Shown: positions 3,279 to 58,618 of the stretch, one piece after another
How positions within the stretch are numbered: the first letter of the stretch is position 1
Layout of the letters: the number at the start of each line of letters is the position of its first letter
DNA from: Candidatus Pacearchaeota archaeon
GTDB taxonomy: Archaea > Nanobdellota > Nanobdellia > Pacearchaeales > GW2011-AR1
Length of the DNA stretch: 60,167 nt
Assembly (NCBI GenBank): GCA_018304105.1
Contig: JAGVWX010000017.1
Location: 1 to 60,167, forward strand
Direction of reading: 5' to 3'
Notes under the pieces: generated by a model
What the model was told of the DNA's origin: nothing
Databases searched by the model: none
The model's input: the letters and a program-made list of their open reading frames with translations, nothing else
Made by a program: the position numbers and the translations under genes

Positions 3279-6200
3279 CTACGAATCACAAATACTCTTT
3301 CTAATTTGTAATTCAGCAAGGCTATGACCTAAAATTTTTTGTAACATTTTATTAGCATATTGACCAAACTCATCGCTTGGAAGAGAAGCGCCAGAAGAAA
3401 TAAATGTTTTAAAAACACTGTTAATTTCCGCAACAACTAAATGAGCTGTTCCCGACTGTGGATCTCGGTATTTAATGATTACATTATTTATATCGTTAAT
3501 ATCCAACTCAAGATATGTCTTAACTCCGCCATACTGTATTCCAAATATTTTTGAGTCAGGGTCATTGTTTACTAACTCAAAACACGTCTGACCATCAGAA
3601 GTAACTAGTATTGAAAAAGTATTACTATCCTTTCTTTCAAACCTTGCAAATTCAGATAATTTGATTGCATCTTCTCCTTCACCAAAAGTAATGTCTGAAG
3701 AAGAAACAAGAGAAGAAGGAGATATTATAACTTCAGACACTGAGGCACTCAAAGGTTTATCAAGCCGAGCTACAACATTATCCGAGGTGGTATAAGATAT
3801 TGCAAGAGCACCCTGTTTTACAAACAAATATGTGCCTTCCGATTCTCCATCTCTTCTTAACTGGTAAAAGATTCCATATTGCCCATTATTAAGAAGAATC
3901 GCCTTTAAACGTTCATTACGGGGCAGTATATCTTTTCCACTCGCCGCCCCGTCCGTCCCAGCGCCGCCAGTCCCCGCTCCGTTCGTCGTCCCGCTCGTTC
4001 CAGCTTCGCCATTTGTCCCATCATCCGCCGCTCCAGTTCCGGCAGTTCCACTAACAAAACTTTTACATTTTCCATTATCACGGTCATAAACACAATTGTT
4101 ACTCGGAACACTGCAATCATTATTTTCACAAGAATTTCTAGTTTCAGATGGATAACCCTCACAGCTTTTTACGTTAGCACACGAAGAACAACTGCCAGAG
4201 AAAGTTCCGCTCACAAAATAACATTTGGCATCTCCGCCCCCCTTTCCCTTGCACTCATCATAGTCACAAGTATTAAACCACCCATCTCCGCATTCATCAC
4301 AATGATATTGCAATGGTTCATTCGCCTGTTGAGTTTGAGCAGGAGCTGAATCCAAACTTGCTGAAGGACAAATGGGATTATTACTACTATCCTCCAAAGC
4401 GCGATAACTATTCCCCTTTAACTTTTCAAAGATATTATGAAAGGGTTTATCTGTCTTAGTAACTTCTAAATTTGCGTATCCAATTAAATCATCAAAATTC
4501 TTTGAATATGCAACATAAACGTAATCTTGAAGATTGTCAGAATATATAATGTAATGCTGTGCTCCTTTTCCATAATATAAAGAAGTCTTTTCGCCTCCAA
4601 ACAAAATTTCTTGCACTTGTGAATTTATAATTGTAACCGTATTGCCCAATGTAAAACAATTTGTTGACGTCCCAGCACTCGGAGTTGTGCTTGCTGGCTT
4701 ACCAAACTCCTCGCTAATTTCAACACGATAACGGTATCCGTCCTGGCTGTTTACCCTTACAATCTTCTCAAAATACTTAAGAGGAATTCCTGCAAAATCT
4801 CTGTCTTCATACCCAGAAACAATACTCTTAAATTCTGCCTGTGAATCAATTTTAACAAATCTGCTCTTGAGTTCTCCAACTTGAACAGAATCTTTCTCAG
4901 CCCTAATTTTATCTAAAAGATTATTATCGAGATAGATTATAGTTCCGCCGTCTTTCATCCACAGCCCAGTATAAGTAAGTTTATTATCTGACGTATTAGA
5001 ATAAAATACCATATCATAATACCTCTGAAACACCGTGTCAGGCATACCATAAACCAAAATCCTCTCATTTGGGGGAAGCTGCGCCTGTTCCTGCTGTTGA
5101 GCCTGTCCAGTTTCTGGCGTCGCTTCTGTACATTCAGTTACTTTAATTTCATTGTTGGCCAATGCTTGCGGAGTCCTCCCTTCTAACGCTTCTGCAACTT
5201 TCTTTTGGTCTGCACTAAGTTTACTAAGATCAACTTGTCTAATCAATTGATATGCTCCATTAACAACTTCAAAAATCGTAATTCTATTTCCATCGCTATT
5301 CGTTGCGGTTGCTCCCTGAGCACTTACCTCAACGCCTGTCTCAGCTCCGCCAACTTTTACCTTGTTATTTTCAACTACAACGTCCCGAGCAGTGCATACT
5401 GGTGCAACACTTCCAGTCGTCCCCGTTCCAGCTCCAGCAGCTGGAGGATTACTAACACAGTTACTAGATGTAATCACGCCCTGTTGCAATGTTTCTGGCT
5501 TTTTCCCAGTTAATGCTTCAACAACTACTTTCACATCTTCGTCGTATTTACTCAAATCAATTCCCAGAGCTAGTTGATATGTTCCATCAGAACCCACATT
5601 CATAACCACAAGGGTTTCTCCGTTAATGTTTGTTGCAGTCACTACACCGCTACCTAGCTCGACACTTGTCAAAATTCCACCGAGCGTTACCTTATTATCC
5701 TTATTAACTTCAACTTTACTAGATATGCAGATTTGTTGTGTCTCGCCATTTTCGTCCACAACCCTTGTCCCTCTAATCTCTTCATCTTCAGCACCCTTAT
5801 AATGCCAAGCAATATACGCCTGCGCGTCTCCTCTGATTATCAGCACCTGCGCCTTGTGCCGATTCCAGAACAATTTCTCAAACAAAGCATTTGCCTTATC
5901 AATCGCAAGTTTAGCAGCATCAATAGAACCCAACTTCGCAACATCGCTCTTCAGCAACATCAATTCATTCTCTACCGCAGAAACTTCCAATGTCTGTCCC
6001 TGCGCATCAAGCATTTCCTTCGCCCTCGCATCCAAAACTTCAAGTGTTTCATCAAGCGTTCCGACATTCCCTTGCGTTATCGCCTGCTCAACGCTCCTTT
6101 GGTCAATCCAGCATCTTATCTTTGGCTGGTCGCAATATCCAACATCAACATACCTGCTTGGGTCTGTCTGGCTTCCCGGATTATCCGTCGAGCAAATTCT

Positions 6201-9200
6201 TATAATTCCCCTATTATAAATCTCCGGACTTACTGTCTCTTCAACTCCTGCCTGAACATTCGGATTCAATAAAGCTGCAGGATTGTTGCTTCCGCTAACA
6301 CACTCTTTCTGCGACGTTATAGTAACCTTGCTCGCCTCGCTTTTTATGTAAGAATCTCTAAGATAATTAACTGCAAAACTAGTGCTGACTTGCTTAAACC
6401 CGCACTTTTCATCCCTATTAATCCTAACGCACAATTCCTTGTAGCCCTGCGGCGCAGTAAAGTCCTTTGTCTCTGACTTATATTCCCCCGTAGCTATAAA
6501 TCCAGACGCAACTGAAACCGTCGGATTCGCAGCATAATATCCCGAAGTCGGCGGATCTCTAAGATAAACGCTGTACTGAACTCCTTGGTCGTTCCCCGCA
6601 AAAATATGATAAAACAATTTGTATTGCGACGTCGCTGGAACTGTCGCGGTTGTGAAAGTCTTCTCGTCAAACCACGCATGGAACTGCGGAGGCGAATCCG
6701 GCTGAAGCAATGTGTCAAATTTCGTTGGCGCCTTAATCGAAATGAAAGACTTGCAGACCTCGCTCCCAATGTCCTGCAAATTTCCTGCCTTGAACGCCGT
6801 AAACGAATTAACCGCATAGCTCTGAGTAAAGTAATCAACAGAATTCTGCATGTTCTGCCACGCGCCCATAACTGAAAGATACTCCGCTCCCCCCCTAACT
6901 CCCTGCCCATACGCCATCTCAATCAGCTTCGGAATCAGTATGTTCACAATCGGAGCGACCTGGTTCCAGAAAAACTCGCAAAGATAAATCGAATAGACCT
7001 CGTCGCATATTCCAGTCATTTGTCCCGTGTCTAAATTATTCTGCAGGCAGTCTCTGAAATTCTTCAATATTGAAATCCATCCTTCAATTCCCGCGTGAAT
7101 TCCCGTCAGGCAGACCGGAATCATAATTCCTTCTCTAATGTTCGGCAGGCACAAGAAAATGCTCCCTATAATTCCTGTCTGCGCAACATTCGCCACATAG
7201 TACGTCCCTCCAAGATTGCATCTCGACGGTGGACACACTACTGGGTCGCATACATTAAACATCAAGTGGCAGTCTTTAGGCGACATGAAATCCTGGCATT
7301 GCGTTGAAGGCGTTCCCGTCATAGGCTTCCCAACCTCAAACCTCTCTCCCCCAATACTAACAAATTTGTTTCCATACTGCTTCGCCGCTTCCATAATCGC
7401 CTGCTGTCCTCTTTGAATTAATATCGTTGCTTTGCCACTATCCAATCCAGGAAACGCATTCAATGGTTGTCCGGTGTTCATATTTATCTGCTGGCACAAA
7501 TCATCTCCGAATCCTGAATCAAACTGTATCTTCCCATTCTTCCCGACATTGCATATCCAGAAGCTCGTTACTCTTCCCGAAGCATCAAACGCCCCAATTC
7601 CCCCAAACGCCGGAAGAGTCTGCTGTGTCGCCGCGTACCATCCTGCCTTCGTGTCAAACGGCACAATCGCCGGCATTCCCTTGTACGGCTCCATCTCGTA
7701 ATACCTCACATGCCTGTCGCTCGACTGTATTTCATTTTGATAACTCGTGCTATCTAATGATTTCACATTCCCGAGTCCGTATGCTCCGGTAAATGCAACA
7801 GGGTCTATCTTCGTTCCTGGCTCACTTTGTTTAGTTACTTCCATTATCCCATAATTGCCAGTCTGTGGATTTCCCTTAAGTCCTAAATAATAAACTCCAG
7901 TACCAAAACTCTTTTCTACGCCCCCTTTATCTTTAGTCGAAACTCCATTCGGAACACTAATAACTGCAAAATGCGTGCTTTCACCAATCAAACCAGTTTC
8001 TGTACGTTGCTCGGCAGTCAACGGCTTCAAAGGCGCTGCAAAATTTGGCGCATGCTGGCTTGAAAGCTCCAGCACAGAAGGATATCCCTTTTTCTCATTT
8101 TCCTTGCTCTGCTTGAATTCCTGGTTCACAATCATATTTTCATTAACTCTCATAGCAACATCTGTCAATTTGCCGTTAACATTCTGCGCCTGCCCTTCCC
8201 CAAGTCCGGTTCCTTGTCTCTGCAGTTCCGCATTCAGCATCAGCGACCTCATTGCTTCCGTCGAAATCAAACTATTATTCACATTTTCCTCGCTCAACAA
8301 TTCTTCAACTCTGACTGTCTTGCTCTCTGTCCCGTCCGCATTCTTCCAAGTATTGTCTCCAAGGTCAATCGTCATTCCAGGATAATCTGCTTTTATTTGT
8401 GCAGCAAGTTTCTTCCTCACCGCATCAGTATCAACGCTCTTCCCGAAAATATCTGTCGATTTTGTCTCTGTATTTTGTATCTGCTGTATCTTCGCATTTA
8501 CTTTATTCATTGCAGCAGTCGTCCTTGAAATTTCAGAATCTATTTCAGATGACTTCGCAATGTAACAAGCATCCATAGTCGGATAAGTTTTCGGCACAAG
8601 CTCTTTGCATCTTTCCGTCCATCCATTCTCTCCGTTCATTACCTCCTGTCTTGCAATCGCTTCTCCGCTCAATCCTGTCATGAAATTCTTGAACGTCAGC
8701 AGCGTTGCAGTCGCAAAGCACGCGCCCTTCAATCCGCTAACAACTTTCCCAAGATTGTCCGCAATCTTCTGCCACTTCTGAATCGTCTTGTTAAGATTCT
8801 CAATCTTTTCGTTTACTTTGTCCGGCGTCAGCTGTATCGCTCTCTTTTCAATCCCGACAAAAACAGTCATATTCGTTTCAGTCCTGCCCCCCTGCGCACT
8901 CGGAATCAATCTTATTTTAACAGACTTCTCAACGTCCACACTATCAAGCTTTACATCAACCCCGCATATTGGCTTTACAGCCTCATCAACTTTTAAAGGA
9001 CGAGTTTCCGTTTTAGGAACACTATCTTTCTTAGCCGTATCGATACAGGAAACTCCAACTTCCACTTTATCAACTTCGACCTTATTCAACTTTATAGTCC
9101 CGACTTTCTTATCATCTCCGTTTTTCAAATCATAACTGGAACCCAAAACCATTCTCATTCCTCTTCCTTGAACAGTAAAATCAGCGCTTGCCTTTTTCGC

Positions 9201-10829
9201 CGGCTCGCTCAAAGACACAAGCCTCAAAACTTTCACGCTGTTGTCAAATTCTATCGCTTCCCCGCTCAAAGAACTGTCAAACTGCCTCAAACTTTCCAGC
9301 TCGCTCTGGTAAGATTCTGTCATCGCATCCCCTGGATAAAGCCCGATATAACGATTGCTCAACCTCGCCTGGCTCTTATCGTCCCCGAACCCTCTCGCAA
9401 GATTAATCGCTTTTTGCAGCGCTTCTTTTCCATAAATCCCATCGTTCTCGCTAGGGTAGTCGTCCGCAACTCTTTCATAAGATTCTATCGCATTATCATA
9501 ATGCTCCGTATATTGCGGCTTAACCGCATTCCCAGATTTTTCCCCAGCATAAATCTTAATCAAACCATAAACAGTATTGAAAAATTTCTTCTGGACATCG
9601 CTCAAAGTCCCTTCGGAAGTAGAGTTCATAATAAATGTCCCGTCTCCCTTCACCAAATTCTCTCCATCAAAATAATATTCTCCTTTGATTGTCGAATCAG
9701 CATTATTATTCAAATCAATCCAATACCTTCCCCCTATTTCTTCAATAGAATAAGATTTTCCATCAATAAAAATAGAGCTAGCGTCACCCTCACCTTTTGT
9801 TTTCAACTCAAGCACAAACTGCTTTCCCGAGCATGTTCCGATTACCTTTCCGCTTTCTCCGTCCCCCATTAGCTCTATTCTCTTTACACTGCATCTCCCA
9901 TCGAGAAAGTTGCTCCCCTCATACACATCAAATGAATCATATGAGCTTCCGGATGAAACTTCTATTCTCGCTTTTTTCTGTGCTGCAACATAACTATCAT
10001 ACGCGACACTCACTCCAGCTCGGCAATACATTCCCGGAACAAAAAATTCCCTTGACGTCTGCCCTTTCTGAACCCGTGTAGTAATCGCCTTTCTGTCTCC
10101 TTCATAAATCGAAACCTCCGCATAATTTTCATCAGCGTTCTCAAGCCTCACAAAATATCTTCCATTCCAGAAACTGCTCTTCAGTTTCTCGCTCTGCCAA
10201 TCCTCAAAGCTCGTCGGCTCTAAAATAAAATCGCTTCTTCCTATTCCGTAGGCATTATCCGCATCATAAGAAATTCTCGCCTGCAATGTCACGTTTACCG
10301 AATCTGGAAGTTTCGCTTCTTCCGGCTGTCTCTTCAGTAAAACAACTGCATATCCGATATTGTTCACAAGCGGGCTTCCAAGAAGAGTGCTCTGCGTCCT
10401 CAACGCTGCTCTCGCCGGATGAAACCCGACATCAAGAACTTCATCCGAGCCAGATACAACTGTAAAATCAATATTTTTTATTTGATTCACTTTAATCAGT
10501 GGGTTAATATCAATCGCGTTTATCTGGCAGAACACCGGAACATCCTGCTCGGCAAGAAGGTCGCTCCTCACAACCTTTGGTTCACACCCGAAAGGCGCAA
10601 CTTGCAGCATAAAATCTTCTCTCGAATCGCACGTGTCTTTGTTTCCTAAAATCGGCCAGTATGTGCTTGCCTGGCTTCCATAAGTGGTCTGGAAAGACGG
10701 CGCTGGCTGGTACGTCGCTGAAACCGCACTTCTGCTGCTATACATTGCGGCAATCGAAAAACTGCTCGAGAAAATAGTTCCAACTAAAAATATCACTACA
10801 AACGCTGCAAAAAGTTCTTTAGTTCTCAT
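3279..10829 (-). CDS. giant secreted Cys-containing surface protein (~2516 aa)
   Basis: Unrecognised as a named family. The ATG at 10829 is chosen because it begins a good signal peptide (MRTKELFAAFVVIFLVGTIF) and overlaps the upstream stop by 11 bases. In order there are beta-rich domains with scattered cysteine pairs, a helical repeat-like stretch near 450-510, coiled-coil segments near 670-800, hydrophobic segments near 1230-1300, two ~85-residue repeats around 1740-1920, a cysteine-dense module near 2200-2290, a Gly/Thr linker and a final beta domain. It probably builds the envelope or a large appendage with the pilin-like protein encoded just upstream. That role is inference; the intact long frame argues strongly that it is a real gene. 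Confidence 0.85.
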   Translation of the reverse strand: MRTKELFAAFVVIFLVGTIFSSSFSIAAMYSSRSAVSATYQPAPSFQTTYGSQASTYWPILGNKDTCDSREDFMLQVAPFGCEPKVVRSDLLAEQDVPVFCQINAIDINPLIKVNQIKNIDFTVVSGSDEVLDVGFHPARAALRTQSTLLGSPLVNNIGYAVVLLKRQPEEAKLPDSVNVTLQARISYDADNAYGIGRSDFILEPTSFEDWQSEKLKSSFWNGRYFVRLENADENYAEVSIYEGDRKAITTRVQKGQTSREFFVPGMYCRAGVSVAYDSYVAAQKKARIEVSSGSSYDSFDVYEGSNFLDGRCSVKRIELMGDGESGKVIGTCSGKQFVLELKTKGEGDASSIFIDGKSYSIEEIGGRYWIDLNNNADSTIKGEYYFDGENLVKGDGTFIMNSTSEGTLSDVQKKFFNTVYGLIKIYAGEKSGNAVKPQYTEHYDNAIESYERVADDYPSENDGIYGKEALQKAINLARGFGDDKSQARLSNRYIGLYPGDAMTESYQSELESLRQFDSSLSGEAIEFDNSVKVLRLVSLSEPAKKASADFTVQGRGMRMVLGSSYDLKNGDDKKVGTIKLNKVEVDKVEVGVSCIDTAKKDSVPKTETRPLKVDEAVKPICGVDVKLDSVDVEKSVKIRLIPSAQGGRTETNMTVFVGIEKRAIQLTPDKVNEKIENLNKTIQKWQKIADNLGKVVSGLKGACFATATLLTFKNFMTGLSGEAIARQEVMNGENGWTERCKELVPKTYPTMDACYIAKSSEIDSEISRTTAAMNKVNAKIQQIQNTETKSTDIFGKSVDTDAVRKKLAAQIKADYPGMTIDLGDNTWKNADGTESKTVRVEELLSEENVNNSLISTEAMRSLMLNAELQRQGTGLGEGQAQNVNGKLTDVAMRVNENMIVNQEFKQSKENEKKGYPSVLELSSQHAPNFAAPLKPLTAEQRTETGLIGESTHFAVISVPNGVSTKDKGGVEKSFGTGVYYLGLKGNPQTGNYGIMEVTKQSEPGTKIDPVAFTGAYGLGNVKSLDSTSYQNEIQSSDRHVRYYEMEPYKGMPAIVPFDTKAGWYAATQQTLPAFGGIGAFDASGRVTSFWICNVGKNGKIQFDSGFGDDLCQQINMNTGQPLNAFPGLDSGKATILIQRGQQAIMEAAKQYGNKFVSIGGERFEVGKPMTGTPSTQCQDFMSPKDCHLMFNVCDPVVCPPSRCNLGGTYYVANVAQTGIIGSIFLCLPNIREGIMIPVCLTGIHAGIEGWISILKNFRDCLQNNLDTGQMTGICDEVYSIYLCEFFWNQVAPIVNILIPKLIEMAYGQGVRGGAEYLSVMGAWQNMQNSVDYFTQSYAVNSFTAFKAGNLQDIGSEVCKSFISIKAPTKFDTLLQPDSPPQFHAWFDEKTFTTATVPATSQYKLFYHIFAGNDQGVQYSVYLRDPPTSGYYAANPTVSVASGFIATGEYKSETKDFTAPQGYKELCVRINRDEKCGFKQVSTSFAVNYLRDSYIKSEASKVTITSQKECVSGSNNPAALLNPNVQAGVEETVSPEIYNRGIIRICSTDNPGSQTDPSRYVDVGYCDQPKIRCWIDQRSVEQAITQGNVGTLDETLEVLDARAKEMLDAQGQTLEVSAVENELMLLKSDVAKLGSIDAAKLAIDKANALFEKLFWNRHKAQVLIIRGDAQAYIAWHYKGAEDEEIRGTRVVDENGETQQICISSKVEVNKDNKVTLGGILTSVELGSGVVTATNINGETLVVMNVGSDGTYQLALGIDLSKYDEDVKVVVEALTGKKPETLQQGVITSSNCVSNPPAAGAGTGTTGSVAPVCTARDVVVENNKVKVGGAETGVEVSAQGATATNSDGNRITIFEVVNGAYQLIRQVDLSKLSADQKKVAEALEGRTPQALANNEIKVTECTEATPETGQAQQQEQAQLPPNERILVYGMPDTVFQRYYDMVFYSNTSDNKLTYTGLWMKDGGTIIYLDNNLLDKIRAEKDSVQVGELKSRFVKIDSQAEFKSIVSGYEDRDFAGIPLKYFEKIVRVNSQDGYRYRVEISEEFGKPASTTPSAGTSTNCFTLGNTVTIINSQVQEILFGGEKTSLYYGKGAQHYIIYSDNLQDYVYVAYSKNFDDLIGYANLEVTKTDKPFHNIFEKLKGNSYRALEDSSNNPICPSASLDSAPAQTQQANEPLQYHCDECGDGWFNTCDYDECKGKGGGDAKCYFVSGTFSGSCSSCANVKSCEGYPSETRNSCENNDCSVPSNNCVYDRDNGKCKSFVSGTAGTGAADDGTNGEAGTSGTTNGAGTGGAGTDGAASGKDILPRNERLKAILLNNGQYGIFYQLRRDGESEGTYLFVKQGALAISYTTSDNVVARLDKPLSASVSEVIISPSSLVSSSDITFGEGEDAIKLSEFARFERKDSNTFSILVTSDGQTCFELVNNDPDSKIFGIQYGGVKTYLELDINDINNVIIKYRDPQSGTAHLVVAEINSVFKTFISSGASLPSDEFGQYANKMLQKILGHSLAELQIRKSICDS

Positions 10830-12870
10830 CAAACTCCAGATACAAATGTTTACTTTCAAACGAATCAAAATTCTCAGACAGTTTCTCAAGCGAATCCGGC
10901 CTCGGCAATCTCTCAGCGCTGATTTTCAATTTGCCTTTCTCCAGCTCGCTGTCGAGCAAATATGTATTCAAAACTCCACCCCCGACTAATGAACTATCTA
11001 TTTTAGTCGCGGGAATAGTAATATCAAAACATTCCTCCTTCGTGCTTCCAAACAATCCGAGAAGCCCTCCCCTCGACGCTTCAATGCACTGCGTCTTCGT
11101 ACTCTCTGGAATTGTTATCGTTGAATTTCCGTAAACATAAACCTTCACTTCGTAGCTTCCTTCAGAAAGCTTAATTTCCTTCTGTTCAGGCATTGCAATC
11201 GTCGTAATCTTCCCATCATCTCTCGCGAAAGAAACAATCGCTATCTCATTTCCTATTTCCTTTCCTCCGACTTTCAATTCAAGCTCAACTTTTCTCTCCC
11301 TCTCCAAAATAACTTCCACAAAACTTTGTTCGTTGCTCGAAACCAGTTCCTTCTTTTCGGCAAATCCTCCCGCTTGGACATCAAGATAACCATTCACGCA
11401 AGCCGGAGCAGGCGTTCTCAAAACTCCGTCAATGCTCTCCCCAAGCCTGCACTTCTGGTTGAAGCACTCGTAACTTAAATTTCCGTTTACTTTATTCAGG
11501 TTCGCGTCATAAAGATGTATCTCCAAATCCTGCGTCATAAACTCGCAAAGGTCGGACTCCTCTTCTTCGACAATAGTCTCTCCTGACAGAGCATTTCTCG
11601 GCATGTTCTTATCAACTATCACAACAATTGGAAACTGGAATAATTCTGCCTTGTCATAAAGTTGCACCATCACTGGAAATTGCACATCATAAATAAACTG
11701 ATAAGGCACATAACAGAATCCCATCAGCCCCATTCCAGCAGCTGTCCCTATTGGCTCTCCCATCATAAGCTCATCGTCAACCCCATCCCCATAAATCTCA
11801 ACCTTCGAAGGCCAATCTTTAAAGTAAAGAAAATTCACTGCCTCATCGGTGCTCTTATCATACACAAAATACTCCCTTTCCTTCTTCGTTATGTCATAAT
11901 AATTTCCTTTTAGCTTAATCGTCTGAAAATTTTCTTGCAATCCTGTCTTTAGCGAATCCATTACTTCTCTTGTTTGCCATATCTTGGGTCCGCACTGAAT
12001 TTCCGCCCCGCTTACCGGAGCATAATTATACAAAACATCAACCGCATAATTTTCTAAAAATGCCTTTTCCATTTCTTCGTTATAAATTCCAGTAGCTAAA
12101 TTGTAAAACTTTCCAAGTTTGCTGTCTACTTCAATTTTATAAGAATCCTTGCTCGCGCTTTGCTCTGCCCTCGAAACACTCAATGAAGAATCAACGCTAA
12201 CTTCTACCTTATTCTCCAGGATGCTGACATCTGCCGTCGGCTCTCCCAATTGAATACCAAATCCTTGGCTATAATAATATTCAAAATCGCAATTCCTTAC
12301 TCCCTCTTCAACATATCTTGCTATTTCATCCTCGATATCGTTCAAAGTAGGAACATTCTCTTTTATAACTCCATTTCCTTCGAGAGAATACCAATATTCT
12401 ACCGGGCTTCCCAGGAAATTCAAATGAGAAGAGAACGGCGCATACTCGCTTCCAGGCACATAATCTTTTATGAAAATCCTTCCTCCCCCCGCCCCAGCAA
12501 GATTCACAGCAGTTCTTGCCTCCCCTTCAATGCACTCGCTGTAATAATCAAAAACCGGCTTCAGCTCCTGCGGAATCTGCCCATCCTCAACATTTCTGTT
12601 TATCGTAAACAAGAACACAACAAGCACAACCAGGATTATCGCAATGATAATGTAAATCGAAACCTGTGCTTTCTTAGACAGATACTTACCGAAAAAATGA
12701 TTCGCATAAATATCTTGGCTAGGCACTATTTGTGGGGAGGAGTTGGCTTGGGAAAATAGTGCATCGCGGGTGGGCGAGCATGTTACGCGAGAGTAATCTG
12801 TAGATAAATTACGAGCGTGGCTGCGAGTTGGGTTAGACAAATCGTCACCAAAAGATTTTCCAGATTTCAT
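10819..12870 (-). CDS. large protein with class III (prepilin-like) signal, in-frame element insertion
   Basis: The 683-residue protein carries SKKAQVSIYIIIAIILVVLV at about residues 65-84, an archaeal prepilin-type signal with its hydrophobic helix, followed by a long extracellular part with several Cys residues. The start at 12870 is supported by an ATGA overlap with the 43-residue gene upstream and a G-rich Shine-Dalgarno run. About 55 residues lie between that start and the signal, and they are translated from a family A hairpin element. Without the element the leader would be a few residues, as is normal. The protein is probably cleaved by prepilin peptidase and works with the giant protein; this partnership is inferred from the coupled genes. 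Confidence 0.8.
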   Translation of the reverse strand: MKSGKSFGDDLSNPTRSHARNLSTDYSRVTCSPTRDALFSQANSSPQIVPSQDIYANHFFGKYLSKKAQVSIYIIIAIILVVLVVFLFTINRNVEDGQIPQELKPVFDYYSECIEGEARTAVNLAGAGGGRIFIKDYVPGSEYAPFSSHLNFLGSPVEYWYSLEGNGVIKENVPTLNDIEDEIARYVEEGVRNCDFEYYYSQGFGIQLGEPTADVSILENKVEVSVDSSLSVSRAEQSASKDSYKIEVDSKLGKFYNLATGIYNEEMEKAFLENYAVDVLYNYAPVSGAEIQCGPKIWQTREVMDSLKTGLQENFQTIKLKGNYYDITKKEREYFVYDKSTDEAVNFLYFKDWPSKVEIYGDGVDDELMMGEPIGTAAGMGLMGFCYVPYQFIYDVQFPVMVQLYDKAELFQFPIVVIVDKNMPRNALSGETIVEEEESDLCEFMTQDLEIHLYDANLNKVNGNLSYECFNQKCRLGESIDGVLRTPAPACVNGYLDVQAGGFAEKKELVSSNEQSFVEVILERERKVELELKVGGKEIGNEIAIVSFARDDGKITTIAMPEQKEIKLSEGSYEVKVYVYGNSTITIPESTKTQCIEASRGGLLGLFGSTKEECFDITIPATKIDSSLVGGGVLNTYLLDSELEKGKLKISAERLPRPDSLEKLSENFDSFESKHLYLEFDEN
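12690..12862. repeat. family A structured element, copy A1 (inside a coding region)
   Basis: The core is TTACGC (12783-12788) facing GCGTGG (12815-12820) and GTAAT/ATTAC (12793-12797, 12808-12812). A further hairpin GCACTATTT/AAATAGTGC encloses a G-rich loop. The right end reads GATTTTCC; the left end (near GAAAAAAT) is only partly complementary. It is translated in frame near the start of the 683-residue gene. Exact borders are uncertain. Confidence 0.75.
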
Positions 12871-12998
12871 TTCTTCCCCCCCTTCTTAACCTTGCTCTCA
12901 ATCAAATTCATAATTTCGGTATTCAAATCTTTCTCAATAACTTCCTTAAACTTGTTCCAAAGTTCCTCATTCTCCACTAAAAGCAAATACTTTTTCAT
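12867..12998 (-). CDS. small conserved-looking protein, first gene of surface operon (43 aa)
   Basis: The frame begins MKKYLLLVENEELWNKFK and ends KKGGKK, with TGA overlapping the next ATG (ATGA at 12867-12870). It is mostly helical and charged, with no membrane segment or cysteine. It resembles short archaeal proteins of the pattern KKYLL-DEELW-KFK that behave like tiny DNA-binding or regulatory proteins, though I cannot name the family. Tight overlap with the downstream gene and a promoter about 145 bases upstream, beyond the E element, make it the first gene of the operon. Confidence 0.65.
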   Translation of the reverse strand: MKKYLLLVENEELWNKFKEVIEKDLNTEIMNLIESKVKKGGKK

Positions 12999-18824: not shown

Positions 18825-18973
18825 CTGTTGGAAAAAGTCAAATGTCGGTTTACTATTTTGTTTTGGGGCAGGGTTGAAGGCGATAGCAAGGGCAGGCATG
18901 CTACGTGAGAGTAATTTGCAGATAAATTACGAGAGTGATTGCGAGTAAAACAATTCAAAAAGATTTTCAACAA
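18825..18973. repeat. family A structured element, copy A2
   Basis: The ends CTGTTGGAAAAAGTC and GATTTTCAACAAG pair approximately. The core hairpin is GTAATTT (18911-18917) with AAATTAC (18924-18930), flanked by the conserved GGGCAGGCATGCTACGTGAGA and GAGAGTGATTGCGAGT sides, where the outer helix is partly decayed. The G-rich segment is TTTTGGGGCAGGG. Confidence 0.7.
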
Positions 18974-19120: not shown

Positions 19121-20965
19121 TTAACGAGTACTCACTGGTGGAAGACCCTTACAAGAGTTGCACTTGACCGTACAGCAACCGCCCGTACCTGAGAAAGTGT
19201 ACCATGGTCTTTTATCATTGCAGCCGGCATTCCGCCAGCCCCAAGTGAAAAATTGTACAGAACCTTCAGCACACTTTGCATCGCTACCAAATAGGTTTTC
19301 ACATGCGGTTTGTCCGGTTTTTCCTATTTTTATACTTGGAGCTATACTATTTGCTTCACAAACATCCCGAACAGCAGGGACAACACAATTTCCGTTTTCG
19401 CATTTTTCGTTAGTATGACAATAACTATCCATCCATATTTCATTCTCTCCACAGATTTGAAAACGCGTCGGATCGTTATCGACACATCTTTTTTGTCCTG
19501 CCGTGCATGCGACTGGGGGAGTTGTAGGGGGAGTTATAACAGGGGGGTTTATGGTTTCTTCCCCTGTTGGAATTGTTGGCGAAGTTGATGATGTAGGTTG
19601 AGAATTTGGACAATTCATTGCAGTAAATGTCCTTGACTCGGAGTTAGCACCATTCCATATCCAAACAGTGTATTGCTGTCCGGAAATTAGTTTTAATTCT
19701 GGGAATGTCTGGTATTCCCCATTGTTTACATTGGATTGGGTGTGTAAAACAAAACCTGTAGGAATTTCAGCAGCAGGGGATGTTCCAACATCTCTGCCGT
19801 AATAATCATTTCCATTTGCAGCAGAACCTTGACTGATCGCTATCCAATAACGGCCGTGTGAAGGGCCATTTATATCAAGTGGAGTGCCTCCCGACCATTG
19901 GAGCAATGCTTTTGATTCTCCTATCGATGAAGAACAAAAAAGGTTGACAGATGGAACATTAGTCGGAGTTATTACTGTGGAGGTTGTTGAAGGGGGTGTG
20001 GTTGGAGTTGTGGGGGTTGTTGAAGGAGGAGCTGTTGATAAGTTTGAACATATCTTAGCAGTAAAGGAGGTTGGTTGTGAATTTTGACCGTTCCATATCC
20101 AGACAGTGTATTGCTGTCCAGAAACGAGTTTTAATTCTGAAACAGTTTGGTATGCTCCGCTATTGACTGATGATTGAGAATGTAATATAAAGTTTGTGGG
20201 GATTTCGGCAGCAGGGGATGTTCCAACATCTCTGCCGTAGTAATCAGCATGATTTGCTGTAAAACCTTGACTGATCGCTATCCAATAACGGCCATGTGAA
20301 GGACCATTTATATCAAGTGGAGTGCCTCCCGACCATTGGAGCAAAGATTTAGATTCTCCTGTCGGTGAAGAACAAAATGTATTGACTGAAGGTGCACTAG
20401 TTGGCTGAATTGCTAATGCCGGTGGAGTTGTAGTTGTTGGCGAAGTTGAGGAAGTAGGTTGAGAATTTGGACAGTCTTTTGCAGTAAATGTTCTTGACTC
20501 GGAATTCACGCCATTCCATATCCAAACAGTGTATTGTTGTCCAGAAACTAGCTTTAATTCTTGGACAGTTTGGTATGCTCCGCTATTGACTGATGATTGA
20601 GAATGCAATACGAAATTGGTCGGAGCTTCTGCAGCAGGGGATGTTCCAACATCTCTGCCGTAATAATCATTTCCATTTGCTGTAAAACCTTGACTGATCG
20701 CTATCCAATAACGGCCATGTGAAGGACCATTTATATCAAGTGGAGTGCCTCCCGACCATTGGAGCAATGCTTTTGATTCTCCTGATGGGGAGGCGCAGAA
20801 TGTATTTACTGTCGGTGCATTTGTTGGCTGAATTTGTACATCCGTTGTCCTTCCGTTGATATTCCCAAATAAATCTCCCAAAAATGACGCAGAAACAAAC
20901 TGTGCTAAAGCAACAGCAAGAACGACGCAAGCAATAAATGAAATGTCTTTCCTCATTTTATCCAT
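19121..20965 (-). CDS. secreted three-repeat surface protein
   Basis: After a signal peptide the protein has three near-identical ~110-residue domains (containing LLQWSGGTPLDINGPSHGRY and QQYTVWIWNG) joined by Ser/Thr/Pro linkers, then a Cys-rich C-terminal region of about 150 residues with at least twelve cysteines. The DNA of the repeats is also nearly identical, so they duplicated or were homogenised recently. The likely start is ATG 20965 or 20956, since a TATA box (TTTATATATT) lies at 20981-20990; an upstream TTG is less likely. A carbohydrate- or cell-binding role is a guess from the architecture. Confidence 0.8.
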   Translation of the reverse strand: MDKMRKDISFIACVVLAVALAQFVSASFLGDLFGNINGRTTDVQIQPTNAPTVNTFCASPSGESKALLQWSGGTPLDINGPSHGRYWIAISQGFTANGNDYYGRDVGTSPAAEAPTNFVLHSQSSVNSGAYQTVQELKLVSGQQYTVWIWNGVNSESRTFTAKDCPNSQPTSSTSPTTTTPPALAIQPTSAPSVNTFCSSPTGESKSLLQWSGGTPLDINGPSHGRYWIAISQGFTANHADYYGRDVGTSPAAEIPTNFILHSQSSVNSGAYQTVSELKLVSGQQYTVWIWNGQNSQPTSFTAKICSNLSTAPPSTTPTTPTTPPSTTSTVITPTNVPSVNLFCSSSIGESKALLQWSGGTPLDINGPSHGRYWIAISQGSAANGNDYYGRDVGTSPAAEIPTGFVLHTQSNVNNGEYQTFPELKLISGQQYTVWIWNGANSESRTFTAMNCPNSQPTSSTSPTIPTGEETINPPVITPPTTPPVACTAGQKRCVDNDPTRFQICGENEIWMDSYCHTNEKCENGNCVVPAVRDVCEANSIAPSIKIGKTGQTACENLFGSDAKCAEGSVQFFTWGWRNAGCNDKRPWYTFSGTGGCCTVKCNSCKGLPPVSTR

Positions 20966-22765: not shown

Positions 22766-22962
22766 CATCCCTCACTGAAAAAATCAGAAAGTTTTGGTCT
22801 GCTAATTTCGTTGGGGGCGAGGTTGGCGTGGTGGCTGGGGCGAGCATGTTACGCGAGTGCAAGTAATTAATAAATTTCGAGCGTGACTGCGAGTAGGGCT
22901 TTTGACCGAAGGTCAAATTAATGTGAGAATCCCAAACCCCTACAAAAAGATTTTCAGTGAAG
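22766..22962. repeat. family A structured element, copy A3, between 11-bp direct repeats
   Basis: The ends are CACTGAAAAAATC (22773-22785) and GATTTTCAGTG (22949-22959), which pair. The core stem is TTACGC (22849-22854)/GCGTGA (22881-22886), followed by the hairpin TTTGACC-GAA-GGTCAAA. TACATCATTTT occurs on both sides, at 22754-22764 and 22963-22973. The element separates iscS from the regulator gene. Confidence 0.8.
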
Positions 22963-31104: not shown

Positions 31105-31395
31105 GTATTAAAGATTATGTTGCAGGTTTCATTATTTCGATTGGGGTGGGAAGGGGTTGGGGATAGGGCGAGCATGTTACGCGAGGTAATCTGCAGATAA
31201 TTTACGAGCGTGACTGCGAGTAGAGTTTTTAACCGATAGGTCAAATCCTTGTGGGAATCTGAAACCTGCCAGAAAGTTAGAGTTGGTTGCAACAAATGAT
31301 TCGGCTTGTAAGATTCATTAACTATAAGCCGAACTGTCTGGGCGGGCGAGCACGTTACGCGAGAGTAGCAACCAACTCGTAAGAAAATCTTCAAT
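31105..31395. repeat. composite A+B structured element (copy A4)
   Basis: The A part has GGGGTGGGAAGGGGTTGGGG (31143-31162, four G-tracts) and the core TTACGC (31177-31182)/GCGTGA (31208-31213), then the hairpin TTTAACC-GATA-GGTCAAA. The B part has GAGTTGGTTGC (31280-31290) pairing with GCAACCAACTC (31368-31378), enclosing TTCGGCTT/AAGCCGAA. It separates the two cupredoxin-like genes of the copper island. Confidence 0.75.
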
Positions 31396-31888: not shown

Positions 31889-31899
31889 GTTAAAACCTT

Positions 31900-32030
31900 C
31901 CAGAAAGTTAGAGTTGGTTGCAACAAATGATTCGGCTTGTAAGATTCATTAACTATAAGCCGAACTGTCTGGGCGGGCGAGCACGTTACGCGAGAGTAGG
32001 GTGCAATCAACTCGCAAAAGGACTCTCATA
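31900..32030. repeat. B structured element, isolated copy B2
   Basis: The first 100 bases (31900-31999) are identical to 31269-31368. GAGTTGGTTGC (31911-31921) pairs with GCAATCAACTC (32003-32013) with one G-T pair, and TTCGGCTT/AAGCCGAA forms inside. The element lies between the cupredoxin-like gene and the 227-residue membrane gene. Confidence 0.8.
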
Positions 32031-53548: not shown

Positions 53549-53711
53549 GACTTCGTTGAAAAAATAAAATTATGGTTTATTATCTGACGCAAACAAACCA
53601 ATCACAAGTCGGTCCGGTGGGTTGGATGATAACTTTTCATGGGAGGATTGGGCAGGATTAGGACAAACAGGGCACACGAAAGCAGCTCAAAAACAGATTT
53701 TCAACAAAGTC
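53549..53711. repeat. family A structured element, copy A5 (divergent)
   Basis: The ends GACTTCGTTGAAAA (53549-53562) and TTTTCAACAAAGTC (53698-53711) pair with one mismatch. The middle keeps GGTTTATTATCTGACG but lacks the usual GGGCGAGCATG core. It holds GGTGGGTTGG and GGGAGGATTGGG instead, and a stretch similar to 36275-36330. Nothing else is seen between 53473 and 53810. Confidence 0.65.
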
Positions 53712-55572: not shown

Positions 55573-55620
55573 TTTTTATCAAGGAAACTGGTAAATAAAT
55601 ATCTTACTAATTTTTAAGCC

Positions 55621-55800
55621 CTGTTGAAAAAGTCAGATTATGGTTTACTATCTTGATTGGGGCAAGATAGTAGTGTGGGAAGGGCGAGCATGGTACACGA
55701 GAGTAATGTATAGAAAATTCGAGAGTGCCTGCGAGTAGGGCTTTTGACCGTTAGGTCAAATTCCTGTGGGAATCCTAAACTAAAGAAAGATTTTCAACAG
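55621..55800. repeat. family A structured element, copy A6
   Basis: CTGTTGAAAA and TTTTCAACAG are perfect inverted ends. ACTATCTTG/CAAGATAGT forms a hairpin, the core is GGTAC (55692-55696)/GTGCC (55725-55729), and TTTGACC/GGTCAAA is at 55743-55760. The core stem replaces TTACGC by GGTAC and GCGTGA by GTGCC with pairing kept. AGCCC occurs on both sides. Confidence 0.8.
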
Positions 55801-55810
55801 AGCCCAATTC

Positions 55811-58286: not shown

Positions 58287-58313
58287 ATTTTTATATCTTT
58301 CGTAAATTCAGGA

Positions 58314-58603
58314 TTTGTTGAAAAAGTAGGAGATTGCAGGTTTATTATATTGATTGGGGCGAGCGCACTACATGACGAGTATTATCGATAATATTTCGCA
58401 TGTGGTCGCGAGAAGAAGGGATCTGGGAGAGGTAAGGGCGGGCTTTTCACTGAAAGTGAAATTTATGTGGGAATCCTAAACCTGCTAAAAAGTCAGAGTT
58501 ATTTGCGACAAATAATTCGACTTGCGAAATCCATTAGCTGCAAGTCGAAACTATCTGGGCGGGTGGGTGGGTGCAAATAACTCAAGAAATATTTTCAACA
58601 AAG
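58314..58603. repeat. family A+B structured element, copy A7
   Basis: The ends TTTGTTGAAAA and TTTTCAACAAA pair perfectly. The A core is ACTACATG (58367-58374)/CATGTGGT (58399-58406) and TTTCACT-GAA-AGTGAAA follows. The B part has GAGTTATTTGC (58496-58506)/GCAAATAACTC (58573-58583) with TTCGACTTGC/GCAAGTCGAA inside and the G-run GGGCGGGTGGGTGGG (58557-58571). Confidence 0.85.
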
Positions 58604-58618
58604 CAGCAAATTCGCTCT

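Follow-up and report, generated by a model that had tools for sequence, protein, structure and literature searches.

An in-frame palindromic repeat between the start codon and the prepilin-like signal of a nanoarchaeal gene

How does a repeat element come to lie in frame between the start codon of a gene and the signal that should follow directly behind it? The locus considered here is part of a stretch of 60,167 nucleotides (the window) from a Pacearchaeota genome; the sequence is that of a MAG. Element A1, a palindromic element of 179 nt (12685..12863, + strand), provides the larger part of the N-terminal leader of a predicted surface protein encoded on the opposite strand. We consider it very likely that A1 is a MITE-like element that inserted behind codon 2 and is read in frame as a leader, and that members of the same family occupy permissive sites elsewhere.

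Host gene, start codon and signal

The host gene (10819..12870, − strand) encodes 683 amino acids. Residues ~3-62 come from A1 and are followed by the KYLSKKAQVSIYIIIAI helix and a beta-rich body of extracellular type. Its start is fixed at 12870, as the first-pass annotation had proposed, because the stop codon of a small upstream gene of 43 amino acids (12867..12998, − strand) overlaps the start codon: in the ATGA at 12870-12867, the TGA of the upstream gene shares bases with the ATG of the host gene. This ATGA junction and a purine-rich, Shine-Dalgarno-like stretch are common to most same-genus orthologs. On the coding strand, A1 starts right behind ATGAAAT and the frame is open as far as KYLSKKAQVSIYIIIAI, in agreement with the earlier claim that the element stands in an open frame between start codon and signal. 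Between A1 and the signal there is no in-frame ATG, GTG or TTG, and inside A1 there are one TTG and one GTG. In the predicted structure, nearly all leader residues (1-65) have a pLDDT below 50 and the helix begins at residue 66. A PDB sequence search with the host protein yielded zero matches and a fold search just weak ones to pilin- or adhesin-like beta-domains (TM about 0.1), from which we draw no function. The end of the host gene is overlapped by a gene for a very large protein (3279-10889, 2536 amino acids) that is without any Pfam or NCBIfam match.

Orthologs have much shorter leaders. The conserved (G/A)-Q motif is preceded by 68 residues in the host protein versus 4-32 (median 9) in 29 orthologs, consistent with the expectation in the first-pass annotation that, in the absence of A1, the start would lie a few residues from the signal. 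The closest ortholog (genome G003, 72% identical) begins MKRGQVSIYIIIAI, and the ortholog in G002 reads MNFSKRAQVSIYIIIAI. Taken together, the alignments support the view that A1 was inserted into a leader that was originally short. Even where no A1-type element is present the junction varies, since the next relative after these two, G008, has a leader of 23 residues of unique sequence. We also observed that the small upstream gene of G003 (contig C3, about 5900-5959) carries ~17 additional in-frame codons near its C-terminus, at the same junction as that of A1 in the window. Both the longer G008 leader and these extra codons were considered as further copies of the element and found unsupported, the inserts being unique or having short matches only.

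The prepilin-like motif SKKAQVSIYIIIAI (residues 65-78; 12637..12678, − strand) has a (G/A/S)-Q junction that is conserved across orthologs: position −1 is G, A or S in all 30 sequences and position +1 is Q in 29 of them. Charged residues and a hydrophobic helix are present. Position +5, on the other hand, is Y, so that the Glu of class III signals is absent, and a Pfam search, including PF04021, gave no match to the host protein. The designation as a prepilin-type signal in the first-pass annotation thus stands for the junction and falls short for Glu+5 and family membership. Each of 10 genomes of the genus encodes an A24 prepilin peptidase (PF01478, above cut-off), and class III signals are cut by enzymes of this family (PMC4858521). 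Cleavage of the A1-encoded leader by this peptidase is plausible and probably occurs, with caution because of the missing Glu.

The repeat family

On sequence grounds, A1 is a member of a family of MITE-like palindromic repeats, non-autonomous elements that are short, multicopy, dispersed and without a coding gene of their own. The ends of A1 are approximate, having been placed on TIR-like sequences by alignment to other copies and by TIR comparison; DNA similarity to other copies extends over at least 12708-12860. The core hairpin module of A1, GGGCGAGCATGTTACGC...GCGTGGCTGCGAGT (12772..12828, + strand), matches the repeat query at 97% identity across 61 bases and scores highest among 58 core copies in the 1.06-Mb source genome (G000), a rank to be read in the light of a core model built from 29 sequences with A1 among them. 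Nine other genomes of the same genus hold 42 (G002), 20 (G003), 12 (G001), 5 (G008), 2, 2, 1, 0 and 0 core matches. According to a search of 93 genomes with a weaker blastn query, the family is almost confined to the genus.

Covariation provides the better evidence for the hairpins. In the core, 92.6% of cells are paired, with six pairs changed on both sides and 12 double-changed cells. This pairing was reached by none of 500 shuffles, a control that ignores relatedness, and was far lower in slid controls, which keep it. A second hairpin of A1, GCACTATTT...AAATAGTGC (12723..12763, + strand), is replaced in the other two copies of the subfamily by GCGATATT/AATATCGC or GCGATGTTGCC/GGCAACATCGC, changes that are compensatory as judged by eye only. 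Folding of A1 alone as a single strand is not striking (z −1.0 as DNA, −2.1 as RNA), its own terminal ends have diverged, and a possible flanking target-site duplication is weak (CAGAT/CAGAT only, 5 bp).

Family elements measure ~140-280 bp and contain one or more core hairpin cassettes, several copies having at least two cores in tandem. A search for the TIR pattern GCTTTGTTGAAAA gave 88 matches, as opposed to 29 with the reversed pattern as control; inverted pairs are separated by 138-280 nt. Candidate target-site repeats of 9 bp in a pilin-like gene and 8/9 in the phosphoglycerate kinase (PGK) gene were found, and none was obvious at several intergenic copies. In the assembly, which is fragmented and 89% complete, we saw neither an autonomous transposon with a matching TIR nor an inverted pair of IS length. 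An Rfam scan of the window returned two tRNAs and nothing else, and none of the viral contigs searched for the core 18-mer had a match.

Within the window, further core copies lie at 18890..18946 and 22838..22894, neither with a conserved gene around it, and at 31166..31221, identified by its core match. A full-length copy with inverted ends GCCCTGTTGAAAAA / GCTCTGTTGAAAAT was recognised by core and TIR match at 55618..55803, and another copy (58312..58604) has its core at 58357-58413 and TIRs at 58312 and 58604; all five are on the + strand.

In-frame copies in other genes and tolerance of the leader

An ORF scan of the stretches around core matches in all genus members with matches, leaving aside a few tandem or weak matches in G002, detected 12 in-frame copies in four species, A1 included; the genus thus has a minimum of nine affected genes besides the host of A1. 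Besides A1, G000 has such copies in genes for a class III pilin-like protein (contig C6), FtsY, Bud32 and an LPG-synthase-TM protein. In G003 the affected gene encodes PGK; in G005 it is again Bud32, at a site other than one of those in G000. Those of G001 lie in genes for a PMT-like protein, a 571-aa protein and UppP, in a pilin-like leader, and at the 3' end of a reverse-transcriptase ORF. Host genes were identified by Pfam, the 571-aa protein and two pilin-like proteins being without Pfam identity. The G001 reverse-transcriptase ORF (C15:3016-3765) ends within a core copy, from which its final ~19 codons and its stop codon derive, and was possibly truncated by the element.

Sequence comparison shows that the insert is missing from orthologs of the host gene, of the pilin and PGK, and of the LPG-synthase-TM gene, as well as from most of those of Bud32. 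PGK has 441 amino acids in G003 versus 374-386 in seven other genomes; its insert is flanked by the direct repeats TTCAAAACA/CTCAAAACA and falls between residues 211 and 219 when aligned to the solved structure 2cun. The LPG-synthase-TM protein has 383 amino acids in G000 versus 311 and 314 in orthologs. Its loop is empty in G003 and G009 and, in G001 (442 amino acids), filled by an apparently unrelated long insert. Bud32 has 307 amino acids in G000 versus 204-249 in orthologs, with an insert of ~73 amino acids between adjacent residues 130 and 131 of solved Bud32, just ahead of the DFG strand. G000 Bud32 has two insert sites; the first is also occupied in G005, and at the second G001, G002 and G008 have other sequence. 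Because they are filled in several genomes, partly with other sequence, these Bud32 loops look like repeated landing sites. The near-N-terminal in-frame insert of Bud32 is recognisably related in G000 (C19:29585-30508) and G005 (C27) and absent in other genus members; it is either old, with losses, or the product of independent hits on one loop. For UppP, alignment to a solved structure puts the insert between the two conserved halves, and the FtsY linker is too variable among orthologs at the insert position for presence and absence to be compared.

The copy at G000 C6:28457 is a second leader case. The protein begins with MQNKRGQI, which the element separates from NKGQISTEYLIV / NKGQISTEYLIVISF, and has a textbook Q-x-S-x-E class III motif (QISTEYL). 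AGGACAAAT stands on both sides of the element as a direct repeat, and the G008 ortholog reads MQNMKRGQISTEYLIVISF, without the element. Judging by this arrangement, duplication of AGGACAAAT would have rebuilt the signal behind the insert. A probable third leader insertion (copy at C22:13184) was noted in G001, in the gene for the pilin-like protein NKKGLAEVVGTWALV (C22:12708-13262), where a downstream internal ATG makes the start uncertain.

Among 52 other, mostly intergenic copies, 5.8% of frames are open over 177 nt. Combined with the one-in-three length requirement, this means that about 2% of random insertions would leave the ORF open, and the best reading of the in-frame copies is that they have survived selection. 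Strand and frame agree in 7 of the 12 (binomial P 0.01-0.03 against an openness-weighted expectation, with copies that are not independent), which is suggestive only, since the copies share ancestry.

These data fit a model in which transposition of a non-autonomous element would have placed A1 behind codon 2 of the host gene, whose surface protein has a prepilin-like N-terminus, leaving start codon and ribosome-binding site preserved from the upstream gene. Both would drive translation through A1, because the length of the insert is divisible by three and the frame in use is free of stop codons. The resulting extra leader of ~60 residues is predicted to be disordered and lies N-terminal of the signal helix; we propose that A1 persists for this reason, with a near-neutral effect, and that the leader is probably removed by the A24 peptidase. 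Elsewhere, selection would spare copies that are open and sit at permissive sites, which would explain why the family is seen in frame at loops, linkers and leaders.

An unlikely alternative is that translation begins within or behind A1, for instance at the GTG in ...SPQIVPSQD, in which case A1 would effectively be 5' untranslated. That GTG is in frame about 20 codons ahead of the motif and would give a leader of ~20 residues, and orthologs with leaders of 20-32 residues exist. It is, however, preceded by the pyrimidine-rich CTCCTCCCC and lacks a Shine-Dalgarno sequence, whereas the host ATG shares with the orthologs both the conserved ATGA overlap and a purine-rich site. Moreover, the ATG frame would have had no need to stay open, yet it is open, as only ~2% of insertions would be by chance, and family copies lie in frame in mid-gene elsewhere. 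That the leader is instead an old host peptide merely resembling the repeat, with the family derived from the host gene, is hardly credible: we found nothing in its favour, orthologs do not have the leader, and the same element is mostly intergenic and occurs in many unrelated genes.

Prepilin processing might also be the specific condition under which elements are kept, that is, mainly in leaders that are cut off. Apart from the presence of an A24 peptidase, this agrees with the position of two of the 12 in-frame copies (A1 and G000 C6:28457), possibly of a third (G001 C22:13184), between start codon and class III-type signal. Eight in-frame copies, however, reside in proteins not so processed (PGK, Bud32 in two species, FtsY, LPG-synthase-TM, UppP, PMT-like and the 571-aa protein), making such a rule highly improbable. 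The first-pass annotation had suggested that removal of the leader lets the extra residues be tolerated; this is too narrow, and we reject it as the general reason, because the inserts in PGK, Bud32, FtsY and UppP are not cleaved by any known step. Returning to in-frame insertion at permissive sites, a possible, though rather doubtful, extension is that the family is itself shaped for read-through: in unrelated genes of several species, its copies would preserve a single frame that is poor in stops and encodes a disordered peptide rich in Arg and Ser (P-T/A-R-D-H-A-R...Y-S...R-S-P), tolerance by proteins would aid its persistence, and prepilin peptidase would act as a protein-level eraser in pilin-like genes.

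Relation to known coding palindromes and further repeats of the window

The Rickettsia palindromic elements (RPE) are palindromic repeats of 105-146 bp with TIRs, found between genes and fused in frame in conserved genes, where the inserts fall in parts of globular proteins that lack structure (PMC2229807, PMC10969869, PMC2996958); one example is an expressed, active guanylate kinase (PMC2229807). The resemblance to them put forward in the first-pass annotation is strong, because many genes carry the present family in frame. Like RPE, it is palindromic with TIRs, intergenic, and also placed in frame within several conserved genes that are unrelated to each other. It differs in its nanoarchaeal host, in core hairpins that are modular or in tandem, in flanking duplications of 8-9 bp at two sites, in the use of several frames, and in having prepilin-type leaders among its sites; the likeness is one of behaviour.

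Coding palindromes are also cited for Wolbachia and Methanocaldococcus jannaschii in reviews (PMC2996958, PMC2229807). As cited there, the M. jannaschii repeats reported in 2005 are likewise archaeal, palindromic and coding, and fused into protein genes, whereas here the host is a DPANN genus and empty sites in orthologs are shown for several genes. Coxiella QMITEs and the enterobacterial RU (ERIC, YPAL) are likewise MITEs that sometimes give in-frame fusions (PMC5896051, PMC2759123); by description, they differ in being bacterial and in the host genes involved. Archaeal MITEs (Sulfolobus, Haloquadratum and others; PMC10969869) are also short, non-autonomous TIR elements, in contrast to which in-gene, in-frame copies are frequent here and no autonomous partner was found.

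By analogy, the A1-type family would act like RPE and the M. jannaschii palindromes, as selfish DNA whose copies are retained if they leave the ORF open and fall in a permissive site (leader, linker or surface loop). It is a new archaeal family of an already known type, given the coding palindromes reported for Rickettsia, Wolbachia and M. jannaschii in the works cited above (PMC2229807, PMC2996958); the lineage is new, and prepilin-type leaders are an additional type of site, a refuge in which the inserted residues may later be cut away. Because such inserts recur in a DPANN genus, with orthologs that show the empty site, and lie in assayable enzymes (PGK, Bud32, UppP), the old question of how selfish DNA can live inside proteins can now be put to the test in archaea. 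In practice, gene calling and MAG curation could mistake such inserts for wrong starts or assembly errors.

The window contains other repeats. A second module, GTTGCAACAAATGATTCGGCTTG...CTGTCTGGGCGGGCGAGC, occurs at 31262-31368 and 31893-31999 (99% identical, 631 nt apart), and both copies are joined to partial A1-type cores, which suggests mosaic or cassette elements. At 53550-53710, a TIR-bounded element of about 160 nt has no detectable core hairpin; similar core-less elements lie elsewhere in G000 (C5:6464-6603, C8:28719-28878 and C2:1412-1549). Finally, 19566-20726 comprises three direct repeats of 300 nt, 72-84% identical, at spacings of 438 and 423 nt.
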